Origin: Rhodopseudomonas sp. AAP120 | GTDB lineage: Bacteria > Pseudomonadota > Alphaproteobacteria > Rhizobiales > Xanthobacteraceae | Length of the DNA: 32,633 nt | Direction of reading: 5' to 3' | Assembly: GCF_001295845.1 (NCBI RefSeq) | Contig: NZ_LJIC01000177.1 | Location: 1 to 32,633 of the forward strand | In this document: piece after piece, positions 27,084 to 32,633 of the stretch | Layout of the letters: every line of letters begins with the position of its first letter | Numbering within the stretch: position 1 is the stretch's first letter | Notes under the pieces: model-generated | Told to the model about the DNA's origin: nothing | Seen by the model: only the letters and a program-made list of their open reading frames with translations | Databases searched by the model: none | Made by a program: the position numbers and the translations under genes

Positions 27084-28334
27084 ATGAAACACGAGACTGA
27101 TGTTCTGGTGCTTGGGGCCGGCATGGTCGGCGTCAGCGCGGCGTTGCATCTGCAGCAGCGTGGCCGCGACGTGGTGCTGGTCGATCGCAACGCCGCGGCC
27201 GGCGACGAGACCAGCTACGGCAATGCAGGGCTGATCGAGGTCGCCTCGGTGCAGCCCTATCTGTTTCCGCGCGATCTCGGCCATCTGCTGCGCTACGCAC
27301 TCAACCGCTCGGCCGACGTGCACTACCATCTGTCCGGTCTGCCCGAATTCCTTCCGTGGCTGGTGCGCTATTTTATGGCGTCTTCGCCGGAGTCGGCCGC
27401 GCGCATCGCCAAGGCGGCGTTGCCGCTGATACGGCAAAGCCTCGCCGAGCACGAGGCGCTCATCGCCGAGGCGGGCGTGCCTGAGTTGCTGCGCAAGACC
27501 GGCTGGATCAAGCTGTTCCGCACCGAGCAGTCGTTCGGCAAGAGCGTCGCCGAACTCGACGGCGTCAAGCGCTTCGGCGTCACCGCCGACGTGCTGGACG
27601 ATGCGGCGATCGCCGCCCGCGAGCCGAACCTGATGGGACGTTTTGCCGGCGCGATCCATTGGCTCGAGCCCGGCTTCATTCCCGATCCCGGTGCGCTGGT
27701 GAAAGCCTATGCGGCGCTGTTCGCCCGCAAGGGCGGACGCTTTCTGCGCGGCGATGCCCATACGCTGCATCAGCAGGCCGGCGGCTGGCGCATCACCACC
27801 GACGACGGCGTCGTTTCGGCGCGCGAGGTCGTGGTGACGCTCGGGCCGTGGTCCGATCTGGTGTTCAAGCCGCTCGGCTATCGCATCCCGCTGGGCGTCA
27901 AGCGCGGTTATCACCAGCATTTCGCGCCGCGCGGCAACGCGGTGCTGCAGCATCCGGTGCTCGACGCCGATCGCGGCTACTTGCTGGCGCCGATGAATCG
28001 CGGCATCCGCCTGACCACCGGCGCGGAGTTCGCGCGCCGCGACGCGCCGCCGACACCGGTACAAGTGACGCGCGCGCGTGCGCTGGCGCGCGATCTGTTT
28101 CCGCTCGGCGACGCCATCGAACAGCAGCCGTGGATGGGCGCGCGGCCGTGCCTGCCCGACATGCTGCCGGTGATCGGCAAGGCGCCGCGCCACGAGGGGC
28201 TGTGGTTCGACTTCGGCCATCAGCATCACGGCCTGACGCTCGGCCCGGTGACGGGGCGGCTGCTCGCCGACATGATGACGGGCGCGGAGCCGTTCGCAGA
28301 TCCCAAGCCGTTTGCGCTCGAACGTTTCGGTTGA
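27084..28334 (+). CDS. FAD-dependent oxidoreductase, D-amino-acid dehydrogenase (DadA) type
   Basis: A 416-aa protein of the DAO superfamily. The N-terminal FAD motif is VLVLGAGMVGVSAALHLQQRGRDVVLVDRN, followed by GDETSYGNAGLIEVASVQPYLFPRD as in DadA-like enzymes; a second conserved block is WMGARPCLPDMLPVIGKAP and the C-terminal FAD contact is FDFGHQHHGLTLGPVTGRLLADMM. Such enzymes oxidise a D-amino acid or related amine and pass electrons to the quinone pool; the substrate is not certain. It starts with ATG at 27084 with no evident ribosome site. It is alone in its transcription unit: the pump lies 387 nt upstream and the next gene 170 nt downstream. Confidence 0.88.
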   Translation: MKHETDVLVLGAGMVGVSAALHLQQRGRDVVLVDRNAAAGDETSYGNAGLIEVASVQPYLFPRDLGHLLRYALNRSADVHYHLSGLPEFLPWLVRYFMASSPESAARIAKAALPLIRQSLAEHEALIAEAGVPELLRKTGWIKLFRTEQSFGKSVAELDGVKRFGVTADVLDDAAIAAREPNLMGRFAGAIHWLEPGFIPDPGALVKAYAALFARKGGRFLRGDAHTLHQQAGGWRITTDDGVVSAREVVVTLGPWSDLVFKPLGYRIPLGVKRGYHQHFAPRGNAVLQHPVLDADRGYLLAPMNRGIRLTTGAEFARRDAPPTPVQVTRARALARDLFPLGDAIEQQPWMGARPCLPDMLPVIGKAPRHEGLWFDFGHQHHGLTLGPVTGRLLADMMTGAEPFADPKPFALERFG

Positions 28335-28504: not shown

Positions 28505-28759
28505 ATGAAAGTCAACGTCGAGATCGATTGCACCCCTGATGAAGCGCGGGCCTTTTTCGGCCTGCCAAACGTGCAGCCGATGCAGAACGCGGTGATGGAC
28601 AAGCTGCAGCAGCAGATGATGTCGAACATCGAGAAGGTCTCGCCGGAAGCGCTGATGCAGAGCTGGTTCACCTTCGATCCGAAGATCGCCGAGCGTTTTC
28701 AGGACATGTTCGTGACCATGGCGGGCCTCGGCAGCACGCTGCCGAAGGACAAGAAGTAA
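28505..28759 (+). CDS. DUF6489-like small protein of the PHA cluster
   Basis: An 84-aa protein that begins KVNVEIDCTPDEARAFFGLPNVQPMQNAVMDKLQQQM and continues with EKVSPEALMQSWFTFDPKIAERFQDMF. The opening VEIDCTPDEAR and FFGLPNVQP, from memory, match DUF6489, a short alphaproteobacterial family of unknown function. It has no signal peptide; the central part is amphipathic and helical, resembling small granule- or membrane-surface proteins. GGAGCGG lies 5 nt before the ATG. It is followed within 20 nt by a hydrolase gene and then the PhaE-like and phasin genes, so a role at polyhydroxyalkanoate granules is suggested by context only. Confidence 0.75.
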   Translation: MKVNVEIDCTPDEARAFFGLPNVQPMQNAVMDKLQQQMMSNIEKVSPEALMQSWFTFDPKIAERFQDMFVTMAGLGSTLPKDKK

Positions 28760-28778
28760 GGAGCCGCAAGGAGGCTGC

Positions 28779-29567
28779 ATGTCGGCTGACGACCGTGCGA
28801 ACGCTCACGATCGCTTACGTCCGCCGAACCTCGCGCTGCTGCTGGCCGAGGCGCGCAGCGTCGTCGAGTTCAATGCCAGCGTGTTGCTGTCGCCGCTGCT
28901 GATGCAGGCGGCGAAGGGCGACGGCCATCCGGTGCTGGTGCTGCCGGGCCTGCTGGCGAGCGATCTGTCGACGGCCCCGCTGCGGCGCTACCTACGCTAT
29001 CTCGGCTATCAGGCGTTCGCCTGGGAGCTCGGCCGCAATCTCGGCGGCGTCTATCGGATGCGCGACCGGGTGCGCCGGCGGCTTGCCGCCGTGCATGCCG
29101 CGACCGGCCGCAAGGTCAGTCTGGTCGGCTGGAGCCTCGGTGGCATCTATGCGCGCGACCTCGCGTTGTATGCACCCGAGACGATCCGCGGCATCGTGAC
29201 ACTCGGCAGCCCGTTCTCCGGCGACATCACCGCCACCCGTGCGCGGCGAGTGTACGAGAAGCTGTCGGGCGAGGAACTCGGTGGCGCCCGGCCGGAGGAT
29301 CTGCAGGCGCTGGCCGGCGACATGCCGGTGCCGACCAGTTCGATCTATTCGCGCACCGACGGCATCGTGAACTGGCGAACTTCTAGGTTGCGACCGTCGC
29401 CGACCGCCGAGAATATCGAAGTCGTTCTGGCGAGCCATATCGGCCTGACCGTGAACGCCGCGGTGCTGTGGGCGATCGCCGACCGGCTGGCGCAGCCCGA
29501 AGGCCGCTTCCGTCCGTTCGAGCGCCGCGGTCCGTTCGCGCTGGCCTATACGCCCGCCGGGCGCTAA
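28779..29567 (+). CDS. Alpha/beta hydrolase of the PHA cluster
   Basis: A 262-aa cytoplasmic alpha/beta-fold hydrolase. The oxyanion region is HPVLVLPGLLASDLS, the nucleophile Ser119 sits in GWSLGG (117-122), and the probable acid and base are D194 (YSRTDGIV) and H220 (ASHIGL). The LVLPG start and Arg-rich lid (YRMRDRVRRRLAAVH) recall lipases and esterases acting on hydrophobic substrates. It lies between the DUF6489 and PhaE-like genes, 19 nt after the former with GGAGG upstream. A PHA depolymerase, oligomer hydrolase or thioesterase role is possible but not shown; the lipase-box Ser replaces the Cys found in PHA synthases, so it is not a standard PhaC. Confidence 0.85.
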   Translation: MSADDRANAHDRLRPPNLALLLAEARSVVEFNASVLLSPLLMQAAKGDGHPVLVLPGLLASDLSTAPLRRYLRYLGYQAFAWELGRNLGGVYRMRDRVRRRLAAVHAATGRKVSLVGWSLGGIYARDLALYAPETIRGIVTLGSPFSGDITATRARRVYEKLSGEELGGARPEDLQALAGDMPVPTSSIYSRTDGIVNWRTSRLRPSPTAENIEVVLASHIGLTVNAAVLWAIADRLAQPEGRFRPFERRGPFALAYTPAGR

Positions 29568-29610
29568 GCGAGCGTCCACGGCATGCCGATATAGATGGCA
29601 GGAGGACACA

Positions 29611-29943
29611 ATGGCCGACAAGGACAACGACCCGGCTGCGGCGTGGCAAGCCATGCTCGGCGAGATGAGCAAGGGTTTCACCACACTGGCCAATCAGGCG
29701 ATGGCCTCGCCCGAGATCGCCAAGGCGGTCGGGCAGGTGAGCGGCGCCACGGCGGAGGCGCAGAAGCAGTTCGGCGCAATGGTGGAGCACTATCTGGCCG
29801 GCCTCAACCTTCCGACTCGCGCCCAGATGGACGATTTCGAGGCCCGCCTGGCGGCGATCGAGGCCAAGCTCGACCGGCTGGTGGCCGCGGTCGGAGACGG
29901 CGCGGCCGGAGCGCCCGGCGGCAAGCCGTCCAGGACGAAGTGA
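29611..29943 (+). CDS. Short PhaE-like, phasin-like protein
   Basis: A 110-aa protein. Residues 11-62 form an amphipathic helix region (AWQAMLGEMSKGFTTLANQAM and onward), followed by NLPTR (66-70) and a heptad-like helix DDFEARLAAIEAKLDRLVAAV. The LPTR plus coiled-coil arrangement is the conserved C-terminal signature of PhaE subunits of class III PHA synthases and of PhaM-like granule proteins, which are usually much longer. The tail is Gly/Ala/Lys-rich. There is no signal peptide. GGAGG lies 6 nt before the ATG. Its place between a hydrolase gene and a phasin gene supports a PHA-granule function, for example binding or activating a PHA synthase encoded elsewhere. Confidence 0.72.
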   Translation: MADKDNDPAAAWQAMLGEMSKGFTTLANQAMASPEIAKAVGQVSGATAEAQKQFGAMVEHYLAGLNLPTRAQMDDFEARLAAIEAKLDRLVAAVGDGAAGAPGGKPSRTK

Positions 29944-30038
29944 GTCTCGACGGCGCGCTAATCCTCATCCCTTGGGATGCCGATGCCTCAGCCAAAAGTC
30001 TGATGATGTAAATCAAAGGCTTAGGCCGATCGTCATTG

Positions 30039-30068
30039 TTGCGTCGCAGCAATTATATTGCAATGCAA
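30039..30068 (+). promoter_or_regulatory. Paired TGC-N3-GCA sites in the phasin promoter
   Basis: Two inverted motifs, TTGCgtcGCAG (30039-30049) and TTGCaatGCAA (30058-30068), have centres 19 nt apart, about two turns of DNA, and flank a -10-like TATATT (30054-30059). TGC/GCA inverted motifs are the type recognised by the PHA-responsive repressor PhaR in other alphaproteobacteria. The phasin start is 84 nt downstream. No convincing -35 box was found. PhaR itself is not encoded in the window. Confidence 0.6.
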
Positions 30069-30151
30069 CATGTTCGATGTCATATTGGGATTGCCCCGGG
30101 CCGATCCCGGACGGGGCAGGACCATAGCTCACAAGAGGATGGACACACCCG

Positions 30152-30640
30152 ATGACTGATACCCATACCGAGAGCCACGAGGCCGCGTTCGATCAGGTCA
30201 AGCAGGCCTTCGCGCCGGTGACCGACGCATTCAAGAATTTCCAGAATCTGGAAGTTCCGGAAGCGACCCGCGACTTCGTCAAGCGCGCCGCCGGCACCGC
30301 CAAGGAAAAGGCTGCCGACCTGCACGCCGGCTCCGAGAAGCTCACCGCGACGATCGAAGAAGCGGTCGCCAATTCGGTCAACGAAGCCGGGCGGATCACC
30401 CGTAGCATTCAGCAGGCGATCCACCACGACACCCAGGCGTTCTTCACCGGCATCGACAAGCTCGCGTCGGCGAAGTCGATCAACGAAGCGGTGCAGATCC
30501 AGTCGGATCTGATTCGCTCGCACGGCGAAGTGCTGGTAGCTCGCGCCAAGTCGGCCAGCGAGTATTTCGGCAAGTTCGCCGCCGACGCCGCCAAGTCGGC
30601 GCAGGACAACCTGTCCAAGACCTTCAGCAAGTCGGCGTGA
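30152..30640 (+). CDS. phaP: Phasin
   Basis: A 162-aa phasin (Phasin_2 family), a surfactant-like protein that coats polyhydroxyalkanoate granules. It is almost entirely helical and amphipathic, without signal peptide: FDQVKQAFAPVTDAFKNFQNLEVPEATRDFVKRAAGTAKEKAADLHAG at the N-terminus, then IQQAIHHDTQAFFTGIDKLASAKSINEAVQIQSDLIRS and FGKFAADAAKSAQDNL near the end, the usual phasin signature. A GGATGGA sequence lies 8 nt before the ATG. It has its own 5' region with candidate PhaR sites and a strong terminator 32 nt after the stop, so it is probably a single-gene transcript that is highly expressed when granules form. The alternative is a MucR/other helical protein, which the motif set makes unlikely. 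Confidence 0.92.
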   Translation: MTDTHTESHEAAFDQVKQAFAPVTDAFKNFQNLEVPEATRDFVKRAAGTAKEKAADLHAGSEKLTATIEEAVANSVNEAGRITRSIQQAIHHDTQAFFTGIDKLASAKSINEAVQIQSDLIRSHGEVLVARAKSASEYFGKFAADAAKSAQDNLSKTFSKSA

Positions 30641-30672: not shown

Positions 30673-30699
30673 AGGCCCGCTCACGCGGGCCTATTTTTT
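30673..30699 (+). terminator. Rho-independent terminator of the phasin gene
   Basis: Perfect 8-bp arms AGGCCCGC (30673-30680) and GCGGGCCT (30685-30692) close a TCAC tetraloop and are followed, after one A, by six T (30694-30699). It begins 32 nt after the phasin stop and is the best terminator in the window. Confidence 0.93.
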
Positions 30700-31564: not shown

Positions 31565-31645
31565 GGCGGACAAATTCCTTGAGGCAAACCTGTGGCAGCG
31601 CGGCGTGCTGGTCCGTGCTGCCAATGATGCGGTTCCGACACTTGC

Positions 31646-31673
31646 ATTGACCGTCCAATTGGTCAATTATATT
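31646..31673 (+). promoter_or_regulatory. Operator and promoter of paaA
   Basis: Perfect 7-bp arms ATTGACC (31646-31652) and GGTCAAT (31661-31667) are separated by 8 nt that contain CCAATT. A -10-like TATATT (31668-31673) directly abuts the right arm, and TTGCAT (31643-31648) is a weak -35 at 19 nt. The site lies between the divergent TetR and paaA genes, 51 nt from the paaA start, as expected for the repressor's operator. Confidence 0.65.
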
Positions 31674-31724
31674 TCCAACAAGGCCGGGCTGCAGGCTCGG
31701 GCAGAGGAAACGTCGAGGTCAGCC

Positions 31725-32633
31725 ATGTACACGCAGGCGCTCAACATCACCGAGACCGAGGACCGCAACCTCGAGGACACCGGCCGCGCCGCGCGGTTCC
31801 AGCAGCGCATCGACGCCGAGCAGCGCATCGAATCCAACGACTGGATGCCGGCCGCGTATCGCAAGACGCTGACCCGGCAGATCTCGCAGCATGCTCATTC
31901 CGAAATCGTCGGCATGCTGCCGGAAGGCAACTGGATCACCCGCGCCCCGACGCTGCGCCGCAAGGCGGCGCTGCTCGCCAAGGTGCAGGACGAATGCGGT
32001 CACGGCCTCTATCTCTACGCCGCCGCCGAGACGCTCGGCTCGTCGCGCGAAGAGCTGGTCGATCAGATGCTGAGCGGCAAGGCGAAGTACTCGTCGATCT
32101 TCAACTACCCGACGCTGACCTGGGCGGATATCGGCGCCATCGGCTGGCTGGTCGACGGCGCCGCGATCATGAACCAGATCCCGCTGTGTCGCTGCTCCTA
32201 CGGCCCCTATGCGCGCGCGATGATCCGCGTCTGCAAGGAGGAATCGTTCCACCAGCGCCAGGGCTACGAGATCATGCTGACGCTCGCCAAGGGCTCGGCT
32301 GAGCAGAAGGCGATGGCGCAGGATGCGCTGAACCGCTGGTGGTGGCCGTGCCTGATGATGTTCGGCCCGCCGGACCAGGCGAGCCAGCACAGCGACACCT
32401 CGACCAAGTGGAAGATCAAGCGCTTCTCCAACGACGAGCTGCGCCAGAAGTTCGTCGATGCCACGGTGCCGCAGGCGTACTACCTCGGCCTGACGCTGCC
32501 TGATGCGGACCTCAGCTACAACGAGGCGACCGGTCACTGGGAGTATGGGGAGATCGACTGGGACGAATTCAAGCAGGTGCTCGCCGGCAACGGCCCCTGC
32601 AACCGCGACCGGCTCGCCGCCCGCCGCAAGGCG
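31725..32633 (+). CDS. paaA: Phenylacetyl-CoA epoxidase catalytic subunit PaaA (3' end cut by window)
   Basis: The first 303 residues of PaaA, the di-iron subunit of the PaaABCE complex that epoxidises phenylacetyl-CoA in aerobic phenylacetate catabolism. Very conserved family blocks are visible: [54 protein letters not shown] (E90, H93), [20 protein letters not shown] and [13 protein letters not shown] (E173, H176), the last two Glu-x2-His pairs being di-iron ligands. GAGG lies 6 nt before the ATG. The frame is open to the last base; from memory the E. coli protein (309 aa) ends about 27 residues after the corresponding RRKA, so only a short C-terminus is missing. The N-terminus is about 17 residues longer than that of E. 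coli. paaBCDE should follow outside the window. Confidence 0.96.

Follow-up and report, generated by a model that had tools for sequence, protein, structure and literature searches.

The 32,633-nt window analysed here is the entire contig NZ_LJIC01000177.1 within the 6.16-Mb assembly of Rhodopseudomonas sp. AAP120, and on its forward strand it carries four genes that an initial annotation had read as a polyhydroxyalkanoate (PHA) granule cluster. A DUF6489 protein of 84 aa (28505–28759; PF20099, 52.4 bits against a cut-off of 23.6, E 5.2e-14) opens the run and is followed by a Ser-type alpha/beta hydrolase of 262 aa (28779–29567), a 110-aa protein (29611–29943) and a phasin of 162 aa (30152–30640). 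A DadA-like FAD oxidoreductase (27084–28334) flanks the cluster upstream, and a TetR regulator, beyond which lies a gene that we take to be paaA, flanks it downstream. The four open reading frames are present on one strand where they had been placed, all adjacent and co-oriented, but the phasin probably does not belong to a single operon as its fourth member, since a promoter-like site and boxes of the PhaR type lie in the 208-bp gap before it. We focus on the 110-aa protein, which looks like a PHA synthase subunit by descent, short and PhaE/PhaR-like, and orphaned from its enzyme. Its homologues in 13 of 16 genomes of the genus, and a within-clade ratio of nonsynonymous to synonymous substitution rates (dN/dS) of 0.067 and 0.173, speak against a chance reading frame.

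The PhaE-type signature first noticed in the 110-aa protein is borne out by the Pfam profile PF09712 (PHA_synth_III_E), which matches residues 28–89 with 26.8 bits, over the cut-off of 25.7, and covers 62 of the profile's 311 positions, close to its end. Two homologues score 20.0 bits (under the cut-off) and 26.2 bits (over it). The protein is likewise about one third of PhaE length, the models spanning 311 (Pfam) and 324 (NCBIfam) positions. Neither NCBIfam cut-off is reached: the window's copy scores 25.9 bits with the PhaE model TIGR01834 (cut-off 154.95) and, below that, 19.4 bits with the PhaR model TIGR02132 (cut-off 148.4), for which two partnered homologues score 33.3 and 37.7 bits. 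Across 17 aligned members, at E ≤ 0.01, PF09712 matches 16, PhaR (PhaR_Bmeg, TIGR02132) 15 and the NCBIfam PhaE model 12, the best match to the class IV PhaR model having an E value of 3.8e-11. One member of this alignment (A1), L067, begins late, with 114 aa as opposed to 128 aa in the 29-copy set described below. Four positions, L62, N66, P68 and R79, are invariant over the 17 members and fall within the stretch common to PhaE/PhaR subunits. A PDB search with the small-subunit profile returned weak matches, mostly to generic coiled coils.

Two known kinds of subunit frame this comparison, which rests on profiles, Bacillus PhaR and PhaC being represented by profiles only. Like the class IV PhaR of Bacillus and Priestia, reported to be present only in class IV synthases in the available text of PMC9705695, the family comprises putative small non-catalytic partners of a short PhaC, and residues 3–96 of a partnered homologue align to positions 4–97 of the 189 in TIGR02132. 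It differs from PhaR in being alphaproteobacterial, in having a GNAT acetyltransferase gene next to the pair, in a PPRTKxPP tail, in the lack of a partner in the window's lineage, and in its three TIGR02132 scores, all far under the cut-off. With class III PhaE it shares the C-terminal N-x-P-[ST]-[RK] motif and the stretch after it, and a homologue on the Novosphingobium plasmid pNL2 carries a PhaE annotation; some 230 N-terminal model positions are absent. The class III pairs of Rhizobium pRL10 and of a Bosea plasmid have longer PhaE proteins (219 and 247 aa), and their PhaC, with the box GICEGG, lies in another branch. Annotated phaE–phaC pairs of this class occur on conjugative-typed plasmids of Rhizobium johnstonii and Bosea vaviloviae (L258:3221-4990; L260:2198-4041; L numbers denote locus records and G numbers genomes). 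The 110-aa protein falls short of full membership in either class III PhaE or class IV PhaR.

The window's copy also yields sub-cutoff matches of a phasin type, to PF05597 (E 0.0013) and to the granule-associated protein model TIGR01837 (E 0.00066), which are found in 7 and 8 of the 17 members, respectively. Together with the true phasin gene that adjoins it, and with the decay of a tail that may once have contacted PhaC, these matches would fit a protein that is now a minor phasin-like coat, its helices binding the polyhydroxybutyrate (PHB) surface without synthase contact. We regard this as unlikely: PhaE and PhaR are matched by more members, and the invariant L62, N66, P68 and R79 lie where synthase subunits resemble one another.

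The enzyme missing from the window is present in most of the relatives retained by the search. Homologues of the 110-aa protein occur in 19 of 100 genomes drawn evenly from the family and a short PhaC of about 360 aa (called at E ≤ 1e-40) in 14, and the short PhaC adjoins the homologue in all 14. The five unpaired homologues include three in the window's own genus. A scan of named genomes yielded 186 relatives; among the best 80 loci, which were kept (the named loci of all counts below), a short PhaC lies directly 3′ of the homologue in 71, among them loci of Bradyrhizobium and Afipia; stop and start codons overlap as ATGA in 69 of these pairs and as GTGA in the other 2. In several orders the small subunit–PhaC operon usually has a GNAT acetyltransferase as its third gene, seen in 68/80 named loci (for example L059:16210-16842 and L257:7450-8028).

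Two of the short PhaC proteins score 323 and 327 bits with the class III PhaC model TIGR01836, below its cut-off of 365, and 148 and 157 bits, far lower, with the class I model; PF07167 (PhaC_N) scores 36.8 bits, over its cut-off of 23.7. The nucleophile box reads GYC[FAM]GG in all 17 short PhaCs compared, and these form one clade (support 99/99), apart from the Rhizobium/Bosea class III enzymes. Nothing beyond this unity is read from the PhaC tree, given the long branches that lead to its class III, haloarchaeal and class I rows.

Within the genus, the 110-aa gene is found in 13 of 16 genomes and the short PhaC in none of the 16, where matches at E ≤ 1e-10 are only 23–28% identical and lie in frames of at least 589 aa. 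The genome of the window has two PhaC_N matches, in frames of 607 and 625 aa on other contigs, in agreement with the initial annotation, which had seen no class III synthase partner. Its further suggestion of a stand-alone PhaE-like protein holds insofar as no partner is present here, but since most of the relatives retained by the search have the cognate short PhaC, the protein is better described as an orphan than as a primary stand-alone design. The proposed linkage to a phasin recurs in 73/80 named loci, and in the other 7 the sequence ends no more than 2.4 kb from the gene.

The pairing extends beyond the family. A class-wide draw of 289 genomes contains a close short PhaC (E ≤ 1e-60) in two, both outside the order and belonging to two other alphaproteobacterial families, and both carry it as a small subunit–PhaC–GNAT trio. 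Plasmid pNL2 has the same trio, whose annotations read PhaE, alpha/beta fold hydrolase and GNAT, and the next gene, on the opposite strand, is homologous to the window's hydrolase (43.6% identity).

A fuller form of the locus survives in a Rhodopseudomonas metagenome-assembled genome (MAG; G105, named record L232), where 12 genes lie between the window's DadA-like and TetR–PaaA flanks. Genes 1–6 encode DUF6489, the hydrolase, a wax ester synthase/diacylglycerol acyltransferase (WS/DGAT), an epoxide-hydrolase-like protein, a P450–reductase fusion and an opposed alpha/beta hydrolase; genes 7–12 encode the small subunit, the short PhaC, GNAT, the phasin, DUF445 and a second hydrolase. Shorter versions occur across the genus, whose neighbourhoods were read in 15 of the 16 genomes, G208 being left out. 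G207 has the order DUF6489–hydrolase–epoxide-hydrolase-like–P450–small subunit–phasin, G204 and G205 the same order minus the epoxide-hydrolase-like gene, and the window, G206, G126, G200–G203 and G209 only the four genes. G165 and G199 are without the hydrolase, and G187 and G198 without the small subunit; in G208, an assembly of 800 contigs that is 92% complete, neither the hydrolase nor the 110-aa gene was found. In G165 and G199 the DUF6489 gene abuts the 110-aa gene with zero spacer (L056:3390-3974; L088:8798-9379), a further stage of erosion. Elsewhere, the small gene persists in G148 and the Bradyrhizobium MAG L192 after loss of the short PhaC, and G124 has neither. A conserved storage-lipid island is also seen in genome G035 (L059:5188-19922), with a wax ester synthase/DGAT, a P450–reductase fusion of 1078 aa, an epoxide-hydrolase-like protein, a PHA synthase, a phasin and DUF445; within the available sequence, WS/DGAT is seen in 57/80 named loci.

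In an island tree built from four concatenated proteins (25 rows, L192 not included, midpoint root), the orphan clade falls among paired rows and three state changes are needed, two of them forced by well-supported branches. Losses are the simpler reading, because the pairing occurs in distant groups.

Selection on the 110-aa gene was followed by Nei–Gojobori dN/dS within two clades of the genus, of 6 and 7 genomes (6 and 5 for the hydrolase). The gene gives 0.067 and 0.173 in the two clades, the DadA-like gene 0.074 and 0.159, TetR 0.107 and 0.227, the hydrolase 0.140 and 0.206, the phasin 0.158 and 0.243, and DUF6489 0.014 and 0.102. The protein is not constrained evenly. For residues 1–95, the pooled ratio of nonsynonymous to synonymous polymorphism (pN/pS) is 0.073 and 0.190 within clades and 0.283 over both, whereas for the tail it is 0.176 and, in clade B, 0.605 within clades and 0.744 over both. 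In the window, this remnant C-terminal tail comprises codons 96–110 and the stop (29896–29943) and ends in GGKPSRTK. The tail pattern PPRTKxPP is present in 71/71 paired named loci and in 1/9 unpaired ones, the exception being L192. A set of 29 copies, which overlaps the named loci, has the tail in 14/14 paired copies (G191 with the one-letter variant PRRT) and whole in none of the 15 unpaired copies. The tail may therefore be what the enzyme required.

These patterns bear on the possibility that the 110-aa gene is a functionless, decaying relic of a lost operon. Its neighbours have been shed stepwise, its tail has decayed and is relaxed, at the clade B and two-clade ratios given above, and it was not found in 3/16 genus genomes. 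A relic would, however, hardly be expected to keep a core of such low pN/pS or a whole-gene dN/dS resembling that of the DadA-like flank, and all 15 unpaired copies are open from start to stop, so we consider this explanation improbable. The 110-aa gene instead appears to be maintained without its enzyme, because its core is under purifying selection and its dN/dS is like that of the flanking genes.

Gene pairing in relatives, absence of the short PhaC from the genus with the small gene kept, relaxed selection on the tail and purifying selection on the core can all be read from the sequences themselves. On this basis we favour, with somewhat better than even confidence, the view that the 110-aa protein is an orphaned synthase subunit in an eroded island, retained and probably acting on class I synthases or the granule surface. 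The cluster would be what erosion has left of a larger island for carbon storage in alphaproteobacteria, and the 110-aa protein the small, non-catalytic half of a two-subunit PHA synthase in which a short PhaE/PhaR-like protein and a PhaC of about 360 aa, followed by GNAT, would form one enzyme. Its conserved core, in which the N-x-P-[ST]-[RK] motif and a coiled-coil-like stretch after it accompany predicted helices, would still have a binding target at the granule and serve as an activator or anchor, the likeliest targets being the two class I PhaC enzymes, the PHB surface or both; the lost tail would have been specific to the short PhaC. Class I PHA synthases are usually regarded as single-subunit enzymes, and PhaM of Ralstonia eutropha is a small activator and anchor of class I PhaC. 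We propose a similar role for the orphan, PhaM being compared by role only. A more specific version is tentative and, in our view, rather doubtful: the mini PhaR/PhaE-like protein and short PhaC, whose overlapping genes share an operon with an acetyltransferase dedicated to them, would be an unrecognised alphaproteobacterial two-subunit synthase, and the Rhodopseudomonas subunit, having lost its enzyme and shed its tail, would have switched in trans to class I PhaC in the manner of PhaM.

Several observations weigh against the orphaned-subunit interpretation. The PhaE match is barely above the Pfam cut-off and far below the NCBIfam cut-offs, and the AlphaFold model of the small subunit, with four helices, is of low confidence (predicted local distance difference test (pLDDT) 64.9, predicted template modelling score (pTM) 0.38). 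The island tree is midpoint-rooted, with four rows under half filled, and one gain plus two losses would also amount to three changes. The gene can evidently be lost, as it was not found in three genomes of the genus, one of them the 800-contig assembly. L192 is without the short PhaC yet has kept the tail, and the genus, being one clade, may have undergone the decay of its tail only once. Finally, boxes of the type bound by the repressor PhaR lie upstream of only 2/28 small-subunit copies, so membership of the small subunit in the PHB regulon is not evident.

If correct, this interpretation describes a natural separation, enzyme missing and subunit kept, in three groups among the loci sampled: the Rhodopseudomonas/R. 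rhenobacensis clade, G148 and L192. The decaying tail and the kept core suggest a map of enzyme-specific as opposed to general function. We know of no settled account of how the small subunits of class III and IV synthases activate their enzymes, and the 110-aa protein could serve as a test case for how synthase helpers work, being small and tractable in R. palustris, a studied bioplastic producer. For R. palustris TIE-1, two phaC and three phaP2 genes are reported in the available text of PMC6791910. Among the titles listed in the literature searches, none concerned a short subunit of the PhaE/PhaR kind from these bacteria.

The island may also have been met in Bradyrhizobium diazoefficiens, which, according to the available text of PMC10888616, has five phaC paralogues, of which PHB polymerization requires only PhaC1. 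One paralogue, blr2885, is named phaC4 there and phbC1 in the accessible part of PMC4029623, and its expression is described as poor or absent (PMC10888616); blr2887 is phaP5, reported in the available text of PMC6201568 to be up 129-fold in a phaR mutant and to have the box TGCATCGCACAA. By locus number only, blr2885 and blr2887, one gene apart, would correspond to the PhaC and phasin of the island. Of the seven papers found to name any of blr2882 and blr2884–blr2887, none mentions blr2884. The small subunit may supply blr2885 with its missing partner, which could explain why blr2885 looked unimportant.

The hydrolase, which carries a GWSLGG box and has sub-cutoff Pfam matches, has S119 (in GWSLGG), D194 and H220 invariant in 18 aligned sequences. 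Its structural model is fair (pLDDT 77.8, pTM 0.82), and its structure neighbours are generic esterases and lipases, the best being 1tqh (E 1.8e-7, TM 0.50). The family appears to belong with the ancestral operon or island, because in L175 and pNL2 the synthase operon has this hydrolase, or a paralogue of it, alongside. It would be the island's resident esterase/lipase, probably turning over a storage ester. A role as an intracellular or extracellular PHA depolymerase was rejected for want of model support, the depolymerase models scoring 11.6 and 11.2 bits against cut-offs of 150 and 300.

The place of DUF6489 in the cluster seems secondary, and the gene is probably a newcomer to the island, a passenger or one recruited from elsewhere. 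The initial annotation had instead proposed a granule-surface module of four genes, DUF6489 included. Such a purpose-built module would fit the occurrence of the four genes in that order in 8/15 genus genomes read, window included, and the co-occurrence of DUF6489 with the 110-aa gene (18/19 family genomes with that gene vs 31/100 overall). Set against this, DUF6489 is found in 103/289 class genomes, and in 34 of 38 neighbourhoods fetched elsewhere in the class it lies near a gene read as mnmE, which lends no support to its assignment as a granule gene. Homologues of the 110-aa protein, hydrolase or phasin (blastp E ≤ 1e-5, coverage > 40%) occur in 0/38 of these neighbourhoods, and the more distant synthase-operon surroundings on L175 and L257 contain no DUF6489. 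We therefore rate the module as the least probable of the explanations considered, marginally below the relic; the class-wide neighbourhood survey gives no support to DUF6489 as a granule protein. The 38 fetched are mostly the better-scoring of the 103 hits, and the gene caller missed DUF6489 itself in 5/38. Outside the order, frequent neighbours of DUF6489 are rho and a DUF255 protein (both named by Pfam), mnmE, mnmG, rsmG, parA and parB (named by eye from sequence) and a small Pfam-less gene (L151:6435-6800); such loci include L151:1-13001, L155:1-13001 and others among L137–L174. Within the order, DUF6489 was found in 4/101 genomes. The term DUF6489 was not found in the literature search.

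The phasin matches PF09361 (Phasin_2) with 49.1 bits, over the cut-off of 24.9 (E 6.7e-13), and TIGR01985 with 95.9 bits, just under the cut-off of 99.7; it would coat granules under PhaR control. Upstream of it lies a sigma-70-like promoter site on the forward strand (30030–30059; TCGTCA-18-TATATT), a consensus match only, with 1 such site found vs 0.2 expected in shuffles. Two PhaR-repressor-type boxes overlap this site, one at 30037–30051 (TGCGTCGCAGCA at 30040–30051, with an other-strand reading at 30037–30048) and one at 30059–30070 (TGCAATGCAACA). The pattern was written after viewing the window and the examples in PMC6201568 for the Bradyrhizobium PhaR repressor. Only box position is used as evidence, because the 12-base pattern is in itself fairly common (5 matches in the window vs 3.85 expected). 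Boxes occur within 200 bp upstream of 29/29 phasins, mostly near −93 and −112. The corresponding counts are 0/14 for the short PhaC, 0/22 for HYD, 0/13 for DUF445, 0/11 for WS/DGAT, 1/18 for P450, 1/23 for the DadA-like gene, 2/31 for DUF6489 and 3/16 for ABH304. A single four-gene operon is less likely, as the phasin has a promoter-like site to itself and boxes whose position is conserved. An intrinsic-terminator-like hairpin with a T run follows the phasin on the forward strand (30673–30692), weak by number alone, with 2 such sites found in the region vs 1.7 expected in shuffles. The TetR gene has no box in the window (31565–31765), and in 6/13 loci it has boxes within 200 bp upstream, possibly by chance and possibly reflecting PHB control of the paa region.

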